Positions 18,900-31,102 of a stretch of DNA of 64,000 nt are shown piece by piece. A program made the translations under genes and the position numbers. Below the pieces are notes generated by a model. The model was not told where the DNA came from and made no database searches. It saw only the letters and a program-made list of their open reading frames with translations. Within the stretch, counting starts at the first letter, position 1, and the number at the start of each line of letters is the position of its first letter. The stretch comes from an uncultured Roseobacter sp. (GTDB lineage: Bacteria; Pseudomonadota; Alphaproteobacteria; Rhodobacterales; Rhodobacteraceae): positions 248,001 through 312,000 of the forward strand of contig CANKZM010000005.1 of the NCBI GenBank assembly GCA_947488305.1. Direction: 5' to 3'.

Positions 18900-20555
18900 G
18901 TGAACGAACCACACGCCCTCCAGATACTGATCCATATTGCAGGTGCTGCGGCCCTGCTGATCTGGGCAGTTCGGTTGGTGCGGACAGGTGTCGAGCGCGG
19001 ATTTGCAGCGCCCATGCGCATCTGGCTGCGGCATTCAGCCCGAAACCGATTGCTTGCCGCAGCAACCGGAATGGGCGCGGCTGTGCTGTTGCAAAGCGCC
19101 ACCGCAGTTGCGGTTCTGGTGTCCAATTTCATGTCCAAAGGCGGGCTTGCAACAGCAACCGGGCTGGCGATCCTCTTGGGTGCAGATGTGGGGTCCGCCT
19201 TGGTGACGCAGCTTTTGGTCGTGCGGCAACCTATTCTGATCCCGCTTTTGCTGGTCGTCGGGGTGACCGTGTTTCTGCGCGGCGAAGGCAGCAACACCCG
19301 CCAGGTCGGTCGGATCATGATCGGGCTTGCGCTGATCTTCGTGTCGCTGGACATGATCCGTGGCGCAACCGAACCGATGATCGCCAACCCCGCTACGCAG
19401 ACCGTCATGGCCTACCTTGGTAGCGACCTGCTGACCGCATTCATCATTGGCGCTGTCTTCGCCTGGGGCGTTCATTCCAGTGTTGCTGCGGTATTGCTAT
19501 TTGTTACGCTAGCCGGGCAGTCGATCCTTCCGGTTCCGGCTGCCGCTGCAATGATCCTTGGGGCCAATCTGGGTGGAGGCTTCATCGCATTTGTACTGAC
19601 CTATTCCGCGCCACTCGCGTCGCGACAAATGATCATGGCCAACCTGATCCTGCGCGGTGGCGGGGCTGCACTGGCTGTTCTTGCCATTGCGTCGCTGCCG
19701 GATCTGCTGACTTACCTTGGGGCTACTCCTGCCCGACAATCCATCAATCTGCATCTGGCTTTCAATTTGCTGCTGGCACTATTGGCGCTACCGCTTGTTG
19801 GGCCGATTACAGCCGTGCTGTCCTATTTCATGGTAGAAAAGCCCAGCACGAACGGTGCTCTGAATGTCGCCAGTGCGCTCGACCCCACTCTATTGGATCG
19901 CCCGCAGCGCGCCATAGACTGCGCAGCGCGCGAACTGCTCGGGATGGGGCAAAAGATCGAACAGATGCTGATCGCGGTCGAACCTCTCTACGACCAATGG
20001 AACGCTACCACTGCAATCATGATCGTGGATCAGGACAAGGCCATTAAGCAGACGCATCTGGATATCAAACTTTATCTTGCCCGCCTCGGCCAAAAGGGGA
20101 TGGATGAGGAACTGAGCAGACGTTCAATGGAGCTGGCCTCGATTTCAACCAGCCTCGATTCTGCATCCGACGCTATTGCGCGGATCATGCTTGAGCTGGC
20201 CAGACGCCTGGATATGCAAAAACTGCAATTCTCGCCCCAGGGTCGCGAAGAAATCCGCGACTTTACGGACAGAGTCCAAAGCAATGTGCAACTGGCCCTG
20301 AATGTGATGATGAACCAGAACCCAGCCGAAGCCCGCGAACTGGTCGCAGCCAAGGAAAAGGTGCGCAAAGTCGAGCAAAAATTGCAGCGCAGCCATATCG
20401 GCCGCCTGCGCGAGGGGCTCGCTGAAAGTATTGAGACGAGCAACATCCACCAGGAAACGCTCCGCGCGTTGAAGCAAATAAACACCGCGTTCTCAATGGT
20501 TGGCCATCCAATCCTTCTGAAATCGGGTGATCTGTTAAAGAGCCGCCTCGCCTAG
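18900..20555 (+). CDS. Na/Pi cotransporter family protein (NptA/YjbB-like)
   Basis: A 551-residue protein with a GTG start. The first ~310 residues are membrane-spanning and contain the two inverted QSATA-type repeats of SLC34-like sodium/phosphate cotransporters (AAVLLQSATAVAVLV and the VHSSVAAVLLF repeat). The last ~220 residues form a PhoU-like helical bundle rich in charged residues. It moves phosphate across the inner membrane. It lies 140 bases after a phosphoesterase operon, so it may handle phosphate released there, but it may have its own promoter. Confidence 0.88.
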   Translation: MNEPHALQILIHIAGAAALLIWAVRLVRTGVERGFAAPMRIWLRHSARNRLLAAATGMGAAVLLQSATAVAVLVSNFMSKGGLATATGLAILLGADVGSALVTQLLVVRQPILIPLLLVVGVTVFLRGEGSNTRQVGRIMIGLALIFVSLDMIRGATEPMIANPATQTVMAYLGSDLLTAFIIGAVFAWGVHSSVAAVLLFVTLAGQSILPVPAAAAMILGANLGGGFIAFVLTYSAPLASRQMIMANLILRGGGAALAVLAIASLPDLLTYLGATPARQSINLHLAFNLLLALLALPLVGPITAVLSYFMVEKPSTNGALNVASALDPTLLDRPQRAIDCAARELLGMGQKIEQMLIAVEPLYDQWNATTAIMIVDQDKAIKQTHLDIKLYLARLGQKGMDEELSRRSMELASISTSLDSASDAIARIMLELARRLDMQKLQFSPQGREEIRDFTDRVQSNVQLALNVMMNQNPAEARELVAAKEKVRKVEQKLQRSHIGRLREGLAESIETSNIHQETLRALKQINTAFSMVGHPILLKSGDLLKSRLA

Positions 20556-20858
20556 GGCCAAATGCACGCCCCGACTGAGAAGTCTGGCAGCTTCACCAGA
20601 CTGAACGCATTGTTATGACACCGGTAGCAAGCAGACTTCCGATCCTATTGACATCGCCAGCATGGGCGCTGACATCAGACAACCGAGAACGGCCAAAATT
20701 TCGAACGATCACACAAAAACTACATCCATTATCCGGCAAGTGCCTCGAATAAGTATGGCAATCCTCTCCTGGAAATTGTGATACTACACTGACCTACATA
20801 ATTTCATGGCAATTTCATTTTCGAACGCGATTATTATTTCAGGAGTTTTCTTCCACCC
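20556..20858. other. Intergenic region with likely NRPS-like gene promoter
   Basis: About 300 bases, increasingly AT-rich toward the next gene. No RNA gene or confident promoter is identified. A CAGGAG lies 13 bases before the ATG at 20859, a rather long spacing. Confidence 0.4.
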
Positions 20859-23800
20859 ATGAGACAATCCCGTAGCAGCACATTTGACCAGGCGACATTG
20901 TTTCCGGCGAGCAGTAATCAGTTTCGCTACGTGATGGCAGAGTTATCAGGTGTCGGCGCATACATGATCGCCGTGGGCCACATGGTCGAGGGATCGCTCG
21001 ACAAAGAGGCCTTCCACGTCGCCGTGCGTCAGTTGGTTGAAAGACATGATGCACTTCGCACGGCGTTTGTATTGGATGGCCGCCAAATACATGCGTCGGT
21101 ATCAACCGATGCCAAATTCCAATTTCACCAATGTGAAATGGAGGATCAGTCTCTGGCCGCTTTTCGAGAGTGGGCGTTGCCAGCTTCGTTTGATGCGGTG
21201 GATACGACTGAGCATGGATCTCTCATTCGCTTTTTCGTCGCTGATTATGGATCTTGTTGGCGTTTCTCGATCGCTGCGCATCACGCCATCATGGATGGAT
21301 TGTCACGTCGCGCGATGCACAAGGACCTGCTCAAACTCTATGTTGGAGAGGAATTGGAACCTGCAAAGTCTTACTACGACTATGCTCTTCCGCACGTGAG
21401 GGACGCATCCACAACCGATGAAGTCGAGAGATTTGTAGAAGCTCTGCCCAAACCTGCGCGGCTGGTTTCTGACGGCTCGGGTAAAAGCGGATTGGCACAG
21501 GCCGGGAAGTTCGTTGAGAAAAATTTCGGGAGTTTTCTAAAGGACATAAGGCCACTGGGAAAGGCAATCGGAGCAAGCAAATTCGGCGTGCTTTCCGCAT
21601 GCCACGCGCTCGGCATGTACGGTTTTACCGGGTCATCAGACGTCGCGACGTTTTTCCAAACCGAAGGGCGCGGAAACTTGGGCGCGCCCGCTTCAGTTAT
21701 TGGACCATTTTCGAACACCCTGCCCCTGGATGTTACTGTCGATTTGGATAAGAATTTTGCCGCTTTCGCCAAAGAACTGACACAGCAGACCAAACTGGCC
21801 ATTTCCTTGGAAACGGAGCCCATCCTGGATTCGACCTTGGCGGCCGGGAAAGGCCCCACCGTGTCGATAAACATGTATCCCCCCTCGAGGCCAATTCGAG
21901 CAGGCTCACTTCAAATTGGTCCGCGGGAGTTTCTGGACCGACGCATCGAATTTGATCTCAACCTGGTCTGGGCTGATGATCGCAATGTCACAACAGGGAG
22001 AGTGTTTTTTGACTCAGCTCACGTTTCAAAAGCGAGGGCCGCGTCATATCTTGATTTTCAGGGCCGATTACTTGCCTCAGTTCTGGAGAATGCTGACAGA
22101 ACTTGCCGGGAAATTCTCGCAGCTGCACGCATCGGGCACGAAGCGGTAACCCATGCGTCTGAGCTTGAACCTGAGCCGACCACGAGATTGCATGAATCCT
22201 TTTTTGAACTTGCCCAAAAACAACCTGACGCTCCAGCGGTCATAACGTCTCGGGAAACCATCACATACGAGGAATTGGCGGATAGAGCCCTTCGATTCAT
22301 GAAGGGTGTGGTTGAACAAGGAGTTGGTGAAGGAGACACCGTTGGAATCCTAGCCGGGAGAGATCCGGCAATCATTGCGGCTATTTTGGGGATTTCAGCG
22401 AGCGGTGCTTCTTTTGCGCTTTTGGATGCGACTTACCCGGATGCACGTCTGAAAAAGATGATAGACCGCTTGGGCGCGCGCTTGATCGTAGAGGCTGGCG
22501 CGGCGTTTCCTAAAGCTATTCAAGGCAATTTCACAATTGTCCGCGAAGCAAATGAACCTGTTTCGTCGATGAAACCTGTTGGCGGCCCGCCGCGCGATGC
22601 GGCTTATCATCTGTTTACTTCCGGTACGACCGGTGAGGCAAAGCTGATTTCGCTGCCCGACAAAACGCTGCAACGTTCCATAGCTTGGCAAATTCAAAAA
22701 CTATCCCTGTCCGAACCCATTACAACCGTACTTCTGGCAGGGATTTCTCATGATCCGACCTTGAGGGATATTTTTCTGCCCCTGTGCAGTGGGGGACGCG
22801 CCATCGTTCCTACGAATACTGAGATGGTCGACCCTAAAAGTCTTCGACATCTCATTCGATCCGCCAAATGCAGTGTATTGAACGCAAGCGCGAGTTCGTC
22901 ACGTTTGGTGTCGGCCGGATTGTCATCCAACGAAGAAGGGTTTCCCGACATACTTGCAATTTTCTGGGGAAGCGAGCGCCTGTCGGCTGCTACAGTCGAG
23001 CACTGGCGTGATCTGTCGCCCCATGCAAGGCAGTTCAACATCTTCGGTACGACAGAAACGCCACAGATTTTCCTGTGCAACGAGATCTTGGCGGAGAGAC
23101 ATAAGAATGAGCCGATCCCGCTGGGTCAACCGCTCCCATATTCGGGTGTCCGGATCGTCGATCCAGATGGCGTACCCGTATCGGTTGGTGAAGTTGGCGA
23201 GATCGTTGCTGATCTTGCGGATCCCGTTTCCGGTGTGAACCAAAAGGTTCAACCGGACCATCCTCAGATTTCAGCTCTCCATTTCACCGGGGACCTTGGC
23301 TACCAAATGCCCGATGGGAATGTGCGGTTTGTTGGACGGCAAGACGATCAGGTTACAATCAACGGTTTCCGCGTGGAGTTGGCCGGGATCGAAGCTGTGG
23401 CGGAAAGCATTTCCGGTGTGGAACGAGCCTGTGCGCTGCTTTCCGAAGAAAAGCTCTTGTTGTTTATCTTGACTGACGATTTGGATGTAAATGAAGGAGT
23501 TATCAGGACGGCGCTGGCAAAGAACTTGCCCAGCTACATGGTGCCGTCAGAAATCCTGCTCACAAATGATTTTCCTTTAACTGCCAATAACAAGGTAGAT
23601 AAAGCGGGTCTTTTGAAACTGAAATCCGAAAAATCGTACGACCCAATAGACCCGGCGTCAGCTCCGGAAACCGAAGATGAGCGCATGATTTCAGCCATCT
23701 TCACAAATTTCTCGGGCCGAGATGCGCTGTACCGAAATCAGTCTTTCTTTGACCTTGGTGCGGACAGTCTAACGACAATTGAAGCGCGTCTGGCTCTGGA

Positions 23801-24926
23801 ACATAAGGGAATTTTGCTGCCGGAAGACTGGCAATGGGTATCCATTGCGGATTTGGCTTTGCTTAATAGATCGACGGCAACTTCAAATGTAACGCGAAAC
23901 CCCTTTTTCTCAACGTCCACGATCGAGACAATGATCCTGTTTCGAGCTCTCGCGATTGTGGGAATCGTAATTGCTCACAATGGCTTCCAACTTGGGATTG
24001 GGTCCACGGTCGCGCTCTTTGCGTTGGCAGGTTTCTCCTTTGCACAGTTACAACTCCCAACTGTGTTAAAGGACGATCATGTCGGACGCGTTGTCGCTTT
24101 ACTCGGACGTATTTACGTACCGCTTGTGCTGTTTTTTTTGCTTCATGCCGTCGCCAATACCCTCAGAGGCGAAGATGTTCACGTAACATCACAACTCTTG
24201 CATCGAAATTTCGCACCCATTCTAAATCATGTTTTCCCGGATCACTGGAACAAACTTCCTGAGATCAGTTGGGTGTGGTTTCTGCATACATACATCCAGA
24301 TATTCGCGCTTATAGGTTTTATGCTGGCGTTCCCCTGGTCACGAGAACGCTTGCGAGACAACACATGGTCTGCCCTGCTTGTTGTATCGCTGGTCTCATT
24401 GTGTGCGAGCATTCTGGCCGTTTCGGGTATCGCCGTTTTCACCGGCGACTTTCGGGAGATCGCTATTAAGCTACAGACAGTACCGACGACTATTTTCCCA
24501 TTTCTCGCGATAGGCGCATTGGCGGTCTATTCGAAAACGCCAATGCAGCGCGTGGTGACGCTGGCTCTCGGAGTTTTGTATTTTGGGATCTGTAAAGCGT
24601 TTTTCCCATTCCTCGGTAATGTATCGTGGATCATCGTTTTGGTTGTCTGCATGATCCTGCCCCATATCGTGCTGCCCCGACTTTTAACGAGGGTCATTGT
24701 CCCAATTGCTGCATTTTCACTGATGATCTATCTGACCCACATTCCGGTCATGCATCTACTCCGGGTTTTTCTCGGAACGACTCCGGCGGCCATCACGGTT
24801 ATCGTGCCCCTCCAAATTCTCATCGGAATTGGTTTCGGCTTGGCAATGAGACCAGTTCTTAGAGCACTGGGAGTAGACAGGCTTTCTACGATGAAGGTAT
24901 CGCTGAGGAGGCAAGAGACCTCATGA
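20859..24926 (+). CDS. NRPS-like C-A-T protein fused to a membrane acyltransferase (AT3)
   Basis: A 1355-residue four-part protein. Residues 10-430 are a condensation domain with an intact HHxxxDG motif (H141-G147). Residues 440-930 are an adenylation domain: A3 LFTSGTTGEAK (~585), A5 FGTTET, A7 FTGDLGYQMPDG, A8 GRQDDQVTINGFRVEL and the A10 lysine in TANNKVDK. Residues 935-1005 are a carrier protein with the phosphopantetheine serine S970 in LGADSLT. Residues 1020-1340 are a multi-helix acyltransferase-3 domain with the N-terminal R..A..V..H pattern (FRALAIVGIVIAHNG). It would load an amino or aryl acid and perhaps pass it to a membrane acceptor. No thioesterase domain is present, and no phosphopantetheinyl transferase was recognised in the window. 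It stands alone. The substrate is unknown. Confidence 0.85.
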   Translation: MRQSRSSTFDQATLFPASSNQFRYVMAELSGVGAYMIAVGHMVEGSLDKEAFHVAVRQLVERHDALRTAFVLDGRQIHASVSTDAKFQFHQCEMEDQSLAAFREWALPASFDAVDTTEHGSLIRFFVADYGSCWRFSIAAHHAIMDGLSRRAMHKDLLKLYVGEELEPAKSYYDYALPHVRDASTTDEVERFVEALPKPARLVSDGSGKSGLAQAGKFVEKNFGSFLKDIRPLGKAIGASKFGVLSACHALGMYGFTGSSDVATFFQTEGRGNLGAPASVIGPFSNTLPLDVTVDLDKNFAAFAKELTQQTKLAISLETEPILDSTLAAGKGPTVSINMYPPSRPIRAGSLQIGPREFLDRRIEFDLNLVWADDRNVTTGRVFFDSAHVSKARAASYLDFQGRLLASVLENADRTCREILAAARIGHEAVTHASELEPEPTTRLHESFFELAQKQPDAPAVITSRETITYEELADRALRFMKGVVEQGVGEGDTVGILAGRDPAIIAAILGISASGASFALLDATYPDARLKKMIDRLGARLIVEAGAAFPKAIQGNFTIVREANEPVSSMKPVGGPPRDAAYHLFTSGTTGEAKLISLPDKTLQRSIAWQIQKLSLSEPITTVLLAGISHDPTLRDIFLPLCSGGRAIVPTNTEMVDPKSLRHLIRSAKCSVLNASASSSRLVSAGLSSNEEGFPDILAIFWGSERLSAATVEHWRDLSPHARQFNIFGTTETPQIFLCNEILAERHKNEPIPLGQPLPYSGVRIVDPDGVPVSVGEVGEIVADLADPVSGVNQKVQPDHPQISALHFTGDLGYQMPDGNVRFVGRQDDQVTINGFRVELAGIEAVAESISGVERACALLSEEKLLLFILTDDLDVNEGVIRTALAKNLPSYMVPSEILLTNDFPLTANNKVDKAGLLKLKSEKSYDPIDPASAPETEDERMISAIFTNFSGRDALYRNQSFFDLGADSLTTIEARLALEHKGILLPEDWQWVSIADLALLNRSTATSNVTRNPFFSTSTIETMILFRALAIVGIVIAHNGFQLGIGSTVALFALAGFSFAQLQLPTVLKDDHVGRVVALLGRIYVPLVLFFLLHAVANTLRGEDVHVTSQLLHRNFAPILNHVFPDHWNKLPEISWVWFLHTYIQIFALIGFMLAFPWSRERLRDNTWSALLVVSLVSLCASILAVSGIAVFTGDFREIAIKLQTVPTTIFPFLAIGALAVYSKTPMQRVVTLALGVLYFGICKAFFPFLGNVSWIIVLVVCMILPHIVLPRLLTRVIVPIAAFSLMIYLTHIPVMHLLRVFLGTTPAAITVIVPLQILIGIGFGLAMRPVLRALGVDRLSTMKVSLRRQETS

Positions 24927-25121: not shown

Positions 25122-27179
25122 GTGCAAGAACCCTCCAACCTTCCCGCAACTCTATCAACGGCGCTGTCCCAAAAAGGGTATAGTGCCCTGACGCCTGTCC
25201 AAGAGGCCGTTACAACGCAAGAATTGGCGGGCAAGGATTTGCTTGTCTCTGCGCAAACCGGTTCCGGTAAAACCGTGGGCTTCGGTCTTGCAATGGCACA
25301 AGAGCTTCTCGATGACAGCGGACGATTTGACCGACCAGCGAACCCTTTGGCCGTGGTGATTGCGCCCACGCGCGAACTGGCACTGCAGGTTCGGCGCGAG
25401 TTCGACTGGCTGTTTGCCGAAGCCGGGATCGTCACTGCATCGGCGGTGGGTGGCATGGATGCACGCGCCGAGCGCAGGGCGCTTGAACGCGGCGCTCATG
25501 TTGTTGTCGCGACGCCGGGGCGGTTACGCGATCACACATCACGCGGGGTGATCGACCTGAGCGATTTGCAGACCGTTGTTCTCGACGAAGCTGACGAGAT
25601 GCTGGACATGGGGTTCGCCGAAGACCTTGAATACATTCTCGATCACACGCCAAAGACCCGGCGGACCTTGATGTTCTCTGCCACTGTTCCGCGCGGCATT
25701 GCCAAGCTGGCCCAGACCTACCAGAACGAAGATGCGCAGCAGCTCAAGGTTGGAAGCCCGGAGGCGCAGCATTCGGATATTACCTACAGCGCCTTGAACG
25801 TGGCGCCTTCGGATGTCGAAAAGGCAATCATCAATTTGCTGCGTTACCACGATGCAAAGACTGCCATAGTGTTCGCCAATACCCGCGCCATGGTTGCGCG
25901 TTTGACTGCGAAGTTCTCGAACCGGGGATTTACCGTTGTTTCCTTGTCAGGGGAACTCAGCCAGACAGAGCGCACCAATGCGATGCAAGCCCTGCGAGAT
26001 GGGCGAGCGCAGGTTTGTGTTGCTACGGACGTGGCCGCCCGGGGCATTGATCTTCCGGGGTTGGAGCTGGTGATCCACGCAGATCTCCCTTCGAATGCCG
26101 AAGCTTTACTGCACCGTTCTGGACGGACCGGTCGTGCCGGGCGCAAGGGAACGTCCATTTTGATCGTGCCGGGCCGCCAGCGCTCGAAAGCGCAAAGATT
26201 GCTGAAGACGGCAAAGTTGGAGGCCGAATGGGGCACCCCACCCTCTGCCGAAGAGGTTCTCGCCCGGGAAGAAGACCGGATCATATCCAGCCCCGCCTTG
26301 GACGAGCCACCAGATGCCGAAGAAACAGCTTTTGCAGAACGGCTGCTCAAGGGCAGAACGCCAGAGCAGGTCGCGGCAGCCTACTTGCGCCTCTACCGAG
26401 AACGCCACTCGGCACCAGAGATCTTGGGAACGGCGCCAGAGCCTGGAAAACGCAACACAGAGGCGCGCGCGGCGTTTGGCCCAAGCACTTGGTTCTCGCT
26501 TTCCTTGGGGCGCAAACAGCGTGCAGAGCCGCGCTGGTTGTTGCCAATGCTGTGCCGCAACGCAGGTCTTTCGAAGGACGCCATCGGCGCAATCCGCGTG
26601 CAATACCAAGAGACCTTTGTTGAAATCGCCACTGATGCTGTACCTGCAATGAAGCGGGATCTGGGGGACGCGTTGGTCATTGAGCAAGGGGCGGCTCTGA
26701 CTGAGCTGGTGGGCGTGCCAGACTTCGATACCTCTCCCAAAGGACCACCTGCGGCGCCTCATTCCTCACCTGAAGCCGCGAAACACCGCAAACCTCGTTC
26801 TGACAAGCCATCGAAAACGGCGCAGACCTCGGAATGGCCAGACAAAGATGCCCGGACTGCATCCGAGCGCCCGAAGCGCAAAGGGAAATCCGCTGCTAAG
26901 GCACTGAACAATCAAGCAGGCAAAGACAAGCCAAAGCAGGGCAAAGCTCTGAAGGCGCAGTCAACAAACGAACGCGGACAGGCAAAACCACAGGCCGCCA
27001 CGGCAGAAAAGAAGCGGGACAAGCGACACAAGGATGCGTCTGACACATCCAAGTCTCTGGGAGCACGAAAAGCGCGCCACAAGGCCAGCGGCAAAGCCTC
27101 AAATACGCGACGTTCGGGAAGCAGAAACAACAAGGGCGGAGACGCAAGACCCGTCCGCAAGCATTCGAAGAAGAACTGA
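25122..27179 (+). CDS. DEAD-box RNA helicase (DeaD/CsdA-like)
   Basis: A 685-residue helicase with a GTG start. In order: Q motif (YSALTPVQEAV), motif I AQTGSGKT, Ia PTRELA, II DEAD, III SAT, V ARGIDLP and VI HRSGRTGRAGR. Residues ~460-545 form a DbpA/CsdA-type RNA-binding domain (WLLPMLCRNAGLSKDAIGAIRV). The last ~120 residues are very Lys/Arg-rich and probably disordered, helping RNA contact. The likely roles are ribosome assembly or unfolding of mRNA in the cold. The gene stands alone, with a ~195-base leader. Confidence 0.93.
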   Translation: MQEPSNLPATLSTALSQKGYSALTPVQEAVTTQELAGKDLLVSAQTGSGKTVGFGLAMAQELLDDSGRFDRPANPLAVVIAPTRELALQVRREFDWLFAEAGIVTASAVGGMDARAERRALERGAHVVVATPGRLRDHTSRGVIDLSDLQTVVLDEADEMLDMGFAEDLEYILDHTPKTRRTLMFSATVPRGIAKLAQTYQNEDAQQLKVGSPEAQHSDITYSALNVAPSDVEKAIINLLRYHDAKTAIVFANTRAMVARLTAKFSNRGFTVVSLSGELSQTERTNAMQALRDGRAQVCVATDVAARGIDLPGLELVIHADLPSNAEALLHRSGRTGRAGRKGTSILIVPGRQRSKAQRLLKTAKLEAEWGTPPSAEEVLAREEDRIISSPALDEPPDAEETAFAERLLKGRTPEQVAAAYLRLYRERHSAPEILGTAPEPGKRNTEARAAFGPSTWFSLSLGRKQRAEPRWLLPMLCRNAGLSKDAIGAIRVQYQETFVEIATDAVPAMKRDLGDALVIEQGAALTELVGVPDFDTSPKGPPAAPHSSPEAAKHRKPRSDKPSKTAQTSEWPDKDARTASERPKRKGKSAAKALNNQAGKDKPKQGKALKAQSTNERGQAKPQAATAEKKRDKRHKDASDTSKSLGARKARHKASGKASNTRRSGSRNNKGGDARPVRKHSKKN

Positions 27180-27271: not shown

Positions 27272-27816
27272 TTGGAGCAATCCGCAGAGGCACGGCGTTA
27301 TGCGGATGTGGACCTGTGCTTTCTTGAGATGAAGGTCAAAAGCAAACGCGGCATGACGGAAAAACATCGCTTGCCCTTTGATCTGAATCCGACGGAGGCA
27401 CTGACGCCGGAAGCATTCGCATTTTCGCGTGAGACATGCAGCGGCCTGTATGACCAGCCATTTGACCACGATCTGGGCAACGCCCTCGATGTCCGGTATC
27501 AGCGGATCACGTTGGTAGCCAAGTCCGGCGGCGAACGCATAACCATAGTTGCGAGGCTGCAATTTTCCACGCCTGACCAAACCCTCGATGCCACAAGCTA
27601 TGTGTTAGTTGTCGAAACGAAGTCCGCTCTCTGGTGTGGGTTTGCCGATAAAGTCTTGCGGCGTATGCACGCCCGCCCAACCAAGAAGTGTTCAAATACT
27701 GAATCGGAATGGCAGTCTTGGGCGAGGTCAGCCGCTGGAACAGGTTCATGCCGACCATGCGTCGACTTCACATGGTCGAGGGGACGAACCTGATTGCCAA
27801 GCCATCAATGCGGTAG
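27272..27816 (+). pseudogene. VTC-domain (polyphosphate polymerase-like) remnant
   Basis: The readable part contains the core of a VTC-type domain (CFLEMKVKSKRGMTEKHRLPF, then ALDVRYQRITLVAKSGGERI and VVETKSA...ADKVLRRMHARPTKKCS). After KKCS the natural C-terminus (IGMAVLGEVSRWNRFMPTMRRL) appears in another frame behind a TGA, ending at 27816. The N-terminal third expected of the family is absent. The gene therefore carries a 5' truncation, a frameshift and a nonsense codon. Family identity is from remembered motifs and is not certain. Confidence 0.6.
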
Positions 27817-28663: not shown

Positions 28664-28879
28664 AACTCTCAACCAGTGGGTTGGCAGCCTGGGTTTCCCA
28701 TCCGACACCCGACTTACTTTCATTCTGGTGAGTTAGCAGAACCTCGGGCTGCTATGAACACCAGACTTTGGTCTGAGTTTCTGTCGGACCATTGGGTCAA
28801 ACTTTCTAGACGATCTGCCGATGTGGCGCGCATGTCTGAGCGCCATAATCGCACCATCAATCAGCTCAGGAGAACTAAA

Positions 28880-29368
28880 ATGTCACGCTCGAAACTACTT
28901 CTCTCAACATCTCTCTGCCTCGTACTTTCTGCTCCGGCCTTTGGTGAAGGTCAACGTTTTGGACAGATTGATTCCAACAGAGACGGCTTGTTGAGCCGCG
29001 ATGAGCTCACTTCCGCATTTGGCACACGTGGCGCAGCCGGTATTTTGAGCCGATCCGACCGCGACAATGATGGTCACGTGAGCCTTGCAGAAGCACGTTC
29101 TGCCGAGGATGGCAATGAAAGCGATGAGGAGGAGGACGATGACGAAAGCGATGACGGAGAATCAAATAGCGGTCGCCATAACGAAAGCGATGAAGGCGGT
29201 GAGAGTGACGACTCCGGTGAAAGCGATGAAAGCGGTGAGAGCGACGACTCCGGTGAAGGCGGCGAGAGCGGCGAAAGTGACGATTCCGGTGAGGGCGGCG
29301 AGAGCGACGATTCCGGCGAAGGCGATGACGGGGGTGAAGGGGGCGAAGGGGGCGAGAGTGACGACTAG
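28880..29368 (+). CDS. Secreted EF-hand protein with acidic Ser/Gly/Asp repeat tail
   Basis: A 162-residue protein with a signal peptide (cleavage near residue 22) and two canonical EF-hand loops, D31-x-N-x-D-G...E42 and D60-x-D-x-D-G...E71, so calcium binding is expected. From residue 75 onward it is an extremely acidic low-complexity tail of DDSGEGGES-like units. The ATG at 28880 is chosen over an upstream in-frame ATG because of the AGGAG at 28868-28872 and the signal peptide. Its composition parallels the Gly/Asp repeat protein at 30254. Confidence 0.75.
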   Translation: MSRSKLLLSTSLCLVLSAPAFGEGQRFGQIDSNRDGLLSRDELTSAFGTRGAAGILSRSDRDNDGHVSLAEARSAEDGNESDEEEDDDESDDGESNSGRHNESDEGGESDDSGESDESGESDDSGEGGESGESDDSGEGGESDDSGEGDDGGEGGEGGESDD

Positions 29369-29509
29369 CGTAAAACAGAATACCACTTGAGTAGGTGACG
29401 GAAATCTAGCTGGTTGCACCCAGATGTCAGCCAGATCAGATTTGCCCTCGGCCGCGCCTTCGCGTCAGATTTGAAAAACGCCGTCAGAATTCGGACTACA
29501 AGAAGCATC

Positions 29510-30121
29510 ATGATATCAGAAACCAAATTCGAGAAACTCTTCTCCTCTCCACTCTTTCGATACAGCGTGACCAATCATGAAGCGCTTAGTGCTGCCCTTC
29601 TTGAGGAGGGGGCAGCCATGCGAAGCGAAGATGATGGCGTTACGAAGTCAAATAGGCGTGGTTGGCATTCGACCGGCAACCTTTTTACGCGACAGTCTGA
29701 TTGTATCGTCGAACTGCGTGTGGCCGCCGAAATGTCCGTGCTCAGCGCCACTCGCAAAATGACCAATAAAGTTGACCCTGAAGACCTCAAGCTGAAGCTC
29801 TTCGGCTGGATGAACGTCAATCCGCTTAATGGTTACAACGCCCCTCACACGCACCCGGGCGCGCATTGGTCGGGGGTCTACTATGTTTCCCAGCCCGAAA
29901 CCGAAGATGGGGATTCTGGCATGATCGAATTTGTCGCCCCGCGAGTTGATCTGCCTCATTGGGAAGTGCTGCAGACTAGCGCCTTTCGGCTAAAACGCCG
30001 GATCAGACCAGCGGCAGGTGAAATTATCCTGTTTCCATCGTACCTGTTGCACTGGGTCTACCCCAACGAAATGGATGAAGACCGAGTTACAGTCGCGTTC
30101 AATGCGACCTTCCGAAAGTAG
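29510..30121 (+). CDS. Putative 2-oxoglutarate/Fe(II) oxygenase (TIGR02466-like)
   Basis: A 203-residue protein with the fold signature of a small 2OG-Fe(II) oxygenase family. The iron ligands are probably the two His-containing segments APHTHPGAHWSGVYYV and LFPSYLLHWVYPNE, with the 2OG-contacting Arg in DRVTVAFN near the C-terminus. The ATG at 29510 places the family N-terminus (FEKLFSSPLFRYSV) correctly. It lies between two acidic secreted repeat proteins, all on the same strand, although the gaps (~140 bases) suggest separate or loose transcription. Substrate unknown. Confidence 0.75.
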   Translation: MISETKFEKLFSSPLFRYSVTNHEALSAALLEEGAAMRSEDDGVTKSNRRGWHSTGNLFTRQSDCIVELRVAAEMSVLSATRKMTNKVDPEDLKLKLFGWMNVNPLNGYNAPHTHPGAHWSGVYYVSQPETEDGDSGMIEFVAPRVDLPHWEVLQTSAFRLKRRIRPAAGEIILFPSYLLHWVYPNEMDEDRVTVAFNATFRK

Positions 30122-30253: not shown

Positions 30254-31102
30254 ATGAAGCCGCTAAAGACGACAAAAATCCTTCTGATGACCTCGGTTTT
30301 CGCGATCTTGCCATATCGTTTGGAAACAGATCTTGCGGGAAAGCTCACGATCGTTGCGTCCCTCGCCCAAGCCGACAGCGGCTCCGGAAGTGACGATGAC
30401 GGTGACGATGGCGGCGAAGGTAGTGAAGGCAGCGGCGAAGGTGGAGACGACGGCGGCGAAGGCGGTGACGATGGTGGCGAAGGTGGAGACGACGGCGGCG
30501 AAGGCGGTGACGATGGTGGCGAAGGTGGAGACGATGGCGGCGAAGGCGGTGACGATGGTGGCGAAGGAGGAGATGACGGCGGCGAAGGCGGTGACGATGG
30601 TGGCGAAGGAGGAGATGACGGCGGCGAAGGTGGTGACGATGGTGGCGAAGGAGGAGATGACGGCGGCGAAGGTGGAGACGATGGTGGCGAAGGAGACCGC
30701 AAAGCGCCGCGAGCGGTCAAAGTTCAGAAGCTCGGGAATGGCGCCCGCATTTTCTTCAGCGACGGGAGTCGTGAGGAGATCCGAAACGGCAGGTATGTTC
30801 GTTTAGACCGCAACGGACGCGTTCTCGAAAGAAGGCGCGCGCGGAGCAGTGACCTAGCACGGGTCCGCGCGTTGACTGGCGGACAAGGAAAAATAGTTGA
30901 AGCCGCACCATCTGGAGTGAAATCTCGTGCGGTCCGGGCCACATATCGTGGAAACAACGCTGAGATATTGTATGCGAATGGTTGGCGCGAAGAGATATCC
31001 TCAGGTCGATACAGTTTGACAGATCAGTATGGCAGAACTGTCTCCTCGCGCCGCGCGACGCAAAAGGACCGAAATCGGCTAAATCGCTTTCGCAACAAAT
31101 AG
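30254..31102 (+). CDS. Secreted Gly/Asp/Glu-repeat protein
   Basis: A 282-residue protein: an apparently exported N-terminus (residues 1-40), then an acidic region with twelve exact GGDDGGE heptapeptides (residues ~63-146), then a basic C-terminal part (residues 150-282). The C-terminal part holds two copies of a domain built as R-V-KV-x-L-GNGARIFFSDGSREEI / NNAEILYANGWREEISSGRYSL, each about 35 residues and probably beta-rich. The acidic repeats could bind calcium. I do not recognise the family. It is convergent with the two-component genes that follow. Confidence 0.65.
   Translation: MKPLKTTKILLMTSVFAILPYRLETDLAGKLTIVASLAQADSGSGSDDDGDDGGEGSEGSGEGGDDGGEGGDDGGEGGDDGGEGGDDGGEGGDDGGEGGDDGGEGGDDGGEGGDDGGEGGDDGGEGGDDGGEGGDDGGEGGDDGGEGDRKAPRAVKVQKLGNGARIFFSDGSREEIRNGRYVRLDRNGRVLERRRARSSDLARVRALTGGQGKIVEAAPSGVKSRAVRATYRGNNAEILYANGWREEISSGRYSLTDQYGRTVSSRRATQKDRNRLNRFRNK
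30440..30691 (+). repeat. 21-bp coding minisatellite, 12 copies (GGDDGGE)
   Basis: 252 bases equal exactly twelve 21-base units encoding Gly-Gly-Asp-Asp-Gly-Gly-Glu. Synonymous differences make a 42-base alternation of two unit types, so the array probably grew by duplication of pairs. Copy-number change keeps the frame. Confidence 0.95.

Follow-up and report, generated by a model that had tools for sequence, protein, structure and literature searches.

A condensation–adenylation–carrier protein joined to a membrane acyltransferase domain in Roseobacter belongs to a rare, patchily distributed family

One gene in the DNA analysed here (the window, a 64,000-nt stretch of contig CANKZM010000005.1 from an uncultured Roseobacter sp., assembly GCA_947488305.1) encodes a 1,355-residue protein that carries, on a single chain, the condensation (C), adenylation (A) and carrier or thiolation (T) domains of a nonribosomal peptide synthetase (NRPS) module, followed by a membrane domain of the acyltransferase-3 (AT3) or transmembrane acyltransferase (TmAT) type, which normally moves acyl groups over the inner membrane. 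A sequence-only reading had proposed a self-contained aminoacyl-transfer machine, which activates an amino or aryl acid and hands it from its own carrier to a membrane acceptor. Our analysis supports this in part. The fusion is a member of a real but rare family with a patchy distribution, and it is, on balance, probably an NRPS-like, membrane-anchored transferase acting alone, a Dlt- or Alm-like device contained in a single polypeptide and extended by a condensation step. The earlier proposal did not cover three further elements: a family of A-T-AT3 proteins lacking C, a second copy of the fusion in the same genome and a diverged A domain in the window copy.

A four-domain protein in one frame

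The frame, whose ATG lies 13 nt 3′ of an AGGAG at 20841-20845, is predicted from its motifs and structure model to hold intact C, A, T and AT3 domains:

20859..24926, + strand: C-A-T-AT3 fusion, 1,355 aa, one ATG-started frame with full-length relatives
20904..22148, + strand: C domain, residues 16-430 (Pfam stretch 16-311)
21279..21299, + strand: HHAIMDG, C-domain active-site motif, residues 141-147
22176..23633, + strand: A domain, residues 440-925, pocket code DPRNIWIQIK
23646..23888, + strand: T domain, residues 930-1010, from the modelled fold; the Pfam PP-binding match does not reach it
23766..23768, + strand: Ser970 in GADSL, predicted phosphopantetheine site
23916..24878, + strand: membrane AT3/TmAT domain, residues 1020-1340
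23943..23978, + strand: R1029-x10-H1040 motif, AT3 transmembrane helix (TM) 1

In a Pfam scan, the C domain matches PF00668 at 89.3 bits (cut-off 30.6) and the A domain matches AMP-binding at 167.7 bits; the AT3 part scores slightly below its cut-off, and the A domain reaches 238.9 bits for TIGR01733, below the curated 317.4. The structure model (predicted local distance difference test score of 92) has a carrier fold directly followed by an HGSNAT/TmAT fold; Foldseek by itself gave no match at E ≤ 0.001. The Pfam scan found no release domain within the protein, which, as a single module, is not a modular NRPS assembly line.

A rare family with a patchy distribution

A search of ~5.8 billion protein sequences gave 577 matches, the best 120 of which were examined. 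Seventy-six rows were aligned: the query, roughly full-length relatives and a small number of shorter sequences. The main group comprises 66 of them (P0001-P0063 and P0065-P0067); in some, the sequence is truncated or no AT3 end can be recognised. The motifs picked out earlier in the one protein recur throughout this group: HHxxxDG, intact in the window copy, is present in 64/66 rows and the G-x-D-S of carrier serine S970 in 66/66, as are the equivalents of A-domain residues D235, P236, R239, W301 and K517. The 56 aligned C-bearing relatives are 29-49% identical to the query, with the domain order unchanged. A misassembly joint as the origin of the fusion is ruled out, because relatives on other contigs share the full-length order. 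The aligned relatives, together with the second copy, bear out a genuine single protein whose four domains look intact and which is kept as a family.

A tree of the T and AT3 domains included 58 such rows (the query, 56 C-bearing relatives and P0064), four distant rows with the C-A-T-AT3 order and 17 of the C-less A-T-AT3 type. All 58 fall on one side of a branch with a Shimodaira–Hasegawa-like approximate likelihood ratio (SH-aLRT) support of 95, and the 58 plus the four distant rows are set apart from the 17 C-less rows with a support of 100. The C-A-T-AT3 architecture is thus found in 57/58 rows of one clade and in the four distant rows, the exception being P0064, which lacks C.

An alignment-based scan of named genomes gave 59 loci, and 14 of these (L037-L050) match the query to residue 1294 or beyond (≥1294); a single-sequence scan of genome contigs gave no match. 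The hosts of the 14 are Roseobacter, Tropicimonas (two), Gemmobacter, Albibacillus, Fluviibacterium, Rhodovulum, Silicimonas, Henriciella, Phenylobacterium, Paracoccus and other Alphaproteobacteria. Lone, more distant matches among the best 120 of 577 come from Planctomycetes and Sphingobium metagenome-assembled genomes (P0066 and P0068). The database names of relatives are generic (AMP-binding protein and Non-ribosomal peptide synthetase component F, for example). Full-length matches occur in 4/193 related genomes and in 3/394 genomes drawn from the bacterial family; within the genus, scored by the C domain alone, the fusion occurs in 3/19 genomes, each count including its own genome.

Two observations concern individual frames. 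The Fluviibacterium copy (L041:9950-14020) has one in-frame stop, within the A domain; a natural split of C from A-T-AT3 was considered for this locus and rejected, as it is a single frame with an in-frame stop. Many genomes of the bacterial family (e.g. G052:C1:3038840-3039787) have a frame of ~1500-1590 aa that matches only query residues ~660-980, covering the late A domain and T, and this is a different, common protein.

The second C-A-T-AT3 copy in the same genome (P0055, L033:1422-5468) lies on contig 20, which is 10,191 bases long. It is 39% identical to the window copy, falls in a different subclade of the T+AT3 tree and has Asn in place of H1294; it adjoins a phosphomannomutase-like gene, with a glycosyltransferase gene nearby. 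The window copy has a GC content of 51.5%, compared with 57.7% and 59.1% for the two flanking genes and 55.3% for the window, and 1% of segments of equal length reach a value as low. Eighteen genomes were searched for the flanking genes, which encode an Na/Pi cotransporter and a DEAD-box helicase; both were on one contig in five congeners, and there they lie far apart. The low GC and this separation fit acquisition of the fusion at its present place.

The C-less A-T-AT3 proteins (~850 aa, e.g. L096:8789-11347:- and P0121-P0240) share the order of A, T and AT3 with the fusion but have no C domain and form their own clade in the T+AT3 tree; A-T plus AT3 is a recurring unit. A search with them gave 1621 matches at E ≤ 0.001. 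The best 120 of these are all full-size, come from Paracoccus, Leisingera, Ensifer, Mesorhizobium, Marinobacterium and others, and are named generically (AMP-binding protein, AMP-dependent synthetase and the like). The position of His1143 in the fusion is Glu in 17/17 C-less rows. Among the 193 related genomes, five hold a full-size A-T-AT3 protein (G039, G042, G050, G110 and G153) and two more a partial one; with 5 versus 4 of the same genomes, we dropped the idea that the C-less form is far commoner than the fusion. The A-T-AT3 gene at L096 adjoins a WecG/TagA/CpsF glycosyltransferase gene.

Predicted substrate and proposed mechanism

The adenylation core motifs noted earlier are in place. 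Asp632 and Lys912, which we take to be residues 235 and 517 in PheA numbering, are kept in all 66 main-group rows, and retention of this pair marks an α-amino acid substrate. The residues of the A domain therefore point to an α-amino acid; of the ‘amino or aryl acid’ proposed before, the first half stands, and retention of the Asp235 equivalent speaks against the second. Pocket codes in the family mostly read DPR[R/H]xWxQAK, the commonest with His at 278 being DPRHVWLQAK (13/76 rows), and codes of a related class, such as DPRHVFLQAK, occur in other NRPSs of the fetched loci. Published codes include DPRHVSLLAK for Asn and DPRHLALLAK for α-aminoadipate (PMC12283262; here and below, citations refer to the available part of each paper). 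With these two, DPRHVWLQAK shares 8 and 7 of its 10 residues, respectively, and the window copy’s own DPRNIWIQIK only 4 and 4. Such matches are too weak for one amino acid to be named, and we rejected doing so; the nearest published codes give only a hint that the substrate may be polar or acidic. A possible likeness to Lys2 codes is one that we did not find in print.

The membrane domain also has the features expected from the earlier description as a multi-helix AT3 domain. In TM1 the R-x10-H motif has Arg in 56/58 rows and Lys in 2/58, followed by His in 58/58, and His1040, Gly1058 of TM2 and Tyr1291 of TM9 are each kept in 58/58. The termini of AT3 proteins are described as cytoplasmic (PMC9833829), which puts A and T on the side of the membrane where ATP is.

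In the transferase that we favour, A would adenylate an α-amino acid, probably polar or acidic, and load it onto the phosphopantetheine of Ser970. C would then amidate its amino group, drawing on an acyl- or aminoacyl-thioester that comes in trans or from a second protein copy. The loaded arm would enter the AT3 tunnel from the cytoplasm, where other AT3 proteins take in acyl coenzyme A (acyl-CoA). The group that it bears would be transferred near His1040 to a lipid or glycan hydroxyl in or beyond the membrane. The amino acid, the donor for C, the acceptor, the product and the carrier-to-AT3 transfer are all points that we infer.

Of the ‘aminoacyl-transfer machine’, the one-chain layout is retained; plain aminoacyl transfer does not explain the C domain, because C has no obvious donor. 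A more specific version, which we advance tentatively, holds that a C-amidated amino acid (N-acyl-aminoacyl or dipeptidyl), bound to the carrier, may be threaded through the TmAT tunnel to a far-side acceptor, with the tethered carrier taking the place of acyl-CoA. If true, this would be an NRPS with a transmembrane release step.

Alternative readings

The C domain also allows a reading with terminal release of a small molecule: an N-acyl amino acid or dipeptide would be assembled by C-A-T and then esterified by AT3 to an alcohol, either a small one or a lipid. What results would be a metabolite or lipoamino acid and no decorated envelope polymer. The intact C motif speaks for this, as does a profile search in which the C domain scores higher with TycC (151 bits), PvdL (145) and Txo2 (130), which we take to be elongation type, than with 7c1h and CDA synthetase I (~62 each), which we take to be starter type. 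TmAT proteins are, moreover, known to act in natural-product pathways (PMC12423673). We nevertheless consider it unlikely: the 36 neighbours of fusion loci scanned with Pfam, a part of all neighbours, include no NRPS, polyketide synthase or free carrier, and the genome has no C domain beyond the window copy and its paralog. By the latter result, the donor for C must originate outside any NRPS line or be provided by a second protein copy.

The membrane domain could instead use acyl-CoA in the ordinary way, the NRPS-like part being just membrane-anchored or working apart, so that one chain does two jobs. Residues of the DxxR, FxxxxG and RXXR motifs of AT3 proteins lie in or near the acyl-CoA site (PMC9833829, PMC12423673), and the second Arg of RXXR has been assigned to the 3′-phosphate of CoA (PMC9833829). 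As a control we used AT3 proteins from the 12 of 15 related genomes having them (28 loci, 26 after two with <7 hydrophobic segments were dropped), a set in which at least rows L140 and L155 seem mis-picked or misaligned and several members are long enough for AT3-SGNH. The TM1 Asp of DxxR is I, V, L, M or A in 56/58 fusion rows and T and H in the others, so that Asp or Glu occurs in 0/58, compared with 19/26 in the control; OacB can dispense with this Asp, and GWT1 lacks it (PMC12423673). The TM2 Phe of FxxxxG is Leu in 57/58 and Met in 1/58, with Phe in 0/58 versus 23/26. The first RXXR position is Arg or Lys in 26/58 and His in 23/58 (Arg or Lys in 24/26 control rows), and the window copy reads H-x-x-R. 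These changes of TM1 Asp and TM2 Phe throughout the family fit a changed donor and do not prove it. We had also considered loss of RXXR as proof of a donor other than CoA and dropped it, because Arg1077 aligns with the second Arg.

Retention of Arg1077 and of R-x10-H favours the two-jobs reading. It is opposed by the TM1 and TM2 changes; by the lack of a release domain in the protein, which would leave T without an outlet; and by the C-less relatives, which have lost much of RXXR (first position Asp in 15/17, second position Arg in 6/17). We regard it as rather improbable, more so than small-molecule release.

It is more doubtful still that the window copy is drifting or inactive and that the contig 20 copy does the work. 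The window copy’s A domain carries seven departures (L484V, P594A, H599L, F607S, G705S, A737I and G911N), and its end branch in the T+AT3 tree is 1.02 versus a median of 0.44. Its frame is, however, fully open, its AT3 domain departs at 0/23 near-invariant columns, and E733, D812, R827 and K912, which are invariant across the 76 rows, are unchanged. Last, a homopolymer synthetase like the ε-poly-lysine synthetase or PosA with its terminal membrane domain, suggested by the single gene with A-T and then a membrane part, is highly improbable, as the fusion has a membrane part of modelled TmAT fold and a true N-terminal C domain, whereas PosA and Pls have six helices in three pairs and three soluble segments (PMC10522769).

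Several results weigh against the one-chain transferase that we prefer. First, no donor for its C domain was identified. Second, the window copy is atypical: its pocket code (N278, I331) is unlike those of its relatives, and its A domain departs at 7/65 near-invariant columns, the fourth most of 62 rows. Third, priming of the carrier by a phosphopantetheinyl transferase is in doubt, because the genome gave a single match of this type (PF01648, in a 141-codon frame) and none to PF17837. Fourth, Arg1077 of TM3 is Arg in 57/58 rows (22/26 in the control), which fits continued use of acyl-CoA.

Gene neighbourhood

The genes next to the fusion in the window are not conserved partners:

18900..20555, + strand: Na/Pi cotransporter-like protein, upstream neighbour, 303 bp gap
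25122..27179, + strand: DEAD-box helicase, downstream neighbour, 195 bp gap

Open reading frames were called in 19 sets, which represent 18 distinct loci, as one of these occurs twice. No constant partner gene was found over these 18, and therefore the fusion gene usually stands alone, which makes the term ‘self-contained’ a reasonable one. The commonest adjacent gene, immediately downstream at 4/18 loci (L038:14056-15135, L041:14034-15104, L045:8942-10009 and L051:2458-3558) and overlapping the fusion frame in two, encodes a Rossmann protein of ApbA/PanE-like type (355-366 aa); these proteins are 47-67% identical among themselves, and a search of the window’s genome found none. Loci L046 and L048 have both adjacent genes in common, one of them GH15/trehalase-like (L046:14101-15957 and L048:13972-15864, both − strand), and a further such gene lies ~3 kb from the fusion at L045:46-1815. 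As neither type is constant, we rejected both as operon partners.

Elsewhere in the window, 28676-29368 and 30254-31102 encode long acidic Gly/Asp/Glu/Ser repeats, with a 2-oxoglutarate–Fe(II) oxygenase (29414-30121) nearby, and 27272-27793 encodes a small protein whose VTC domain match, at 22.9 bits, falls short of the threshold of 23.

Relation to known systems and implications

Carrier-bound amino acids reach envelope acceptors through membrane or membrane-associated transferases in the Dlt and Alm systems (PMC3783018, PMC12930378). In teichoic acid D-alanylation by DltA, DltC, DltB and DltD, an amino acid is adenylated and loaded onto a carrier in the cytoplasm, and a multi-span membrane acyltransferase passes it on (PMC3783018); unlike the fusion, Dlt consists of separate proteins without a C domain, DltB is an MBOAT rather than an AT3/TmAT protein, and the acceptors are Gram-positive. 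AlmEFG, which puts glycine on Vibrio cholerae lipid A, likewise combines an adenylation enzyme, a carrier and an envelope-lipid transferase (PMC12930378), but again as separate proteins without C, and AlmG is of lysophospholipid acyltransferase type (PMC3783018). The fusion would work like DltA, DltC and DltB or AlmE, AlmF and AlmG on one chain and is a member of neither system. The homo-poly-amino-acid synthetases Pls and PosA share with it an NRPS-like A-T and a terminal membrane domain (PMC10522769) and differ in the kind of that domain and in lacking an N-terminal C domain. AT3/TmAT acyltransferases such as OafB and HGSNAT share the TmAT fold, R-x10-H, TM2 Gly and TM9 Tyr; the donors named for them are acyl-CoA (PMC9558356, PMC12423673).

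The AT3 fusions named in the available text of these two papers have SGNH, alanine racemase, NRF and other eukaryotic domains as partners, and none has NRPS parts; the terms AMP-binding, nonribosomal and phosphopantetheine are absent from that of PMC9558356, and NRPS and carrier from that of PMC12423673. Among the top-ranked papers of our literature searches, at the level of titles and abstract openings, we recognised no description of a C-A-T-AT3 or A-T-AT3 enzyme. What appears new is the different membrane transferase and the added condensation domain; carrier-dependent amino-acid transfer is of a known kind.

AT3 proteins are known, in the papers cited, as users of acyl-CoA, and a fused carrier makes the question of the donor directly testable, because mutation of one serine should stop transfer. 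If the proposed mechanism is true, the fusion would add a way of decorating Gram-negative envelopes with aminoacyl or N-acyl-aminoacyl groups, and it would suggest a use for the generically named C-less A-T-AT3 proteins.

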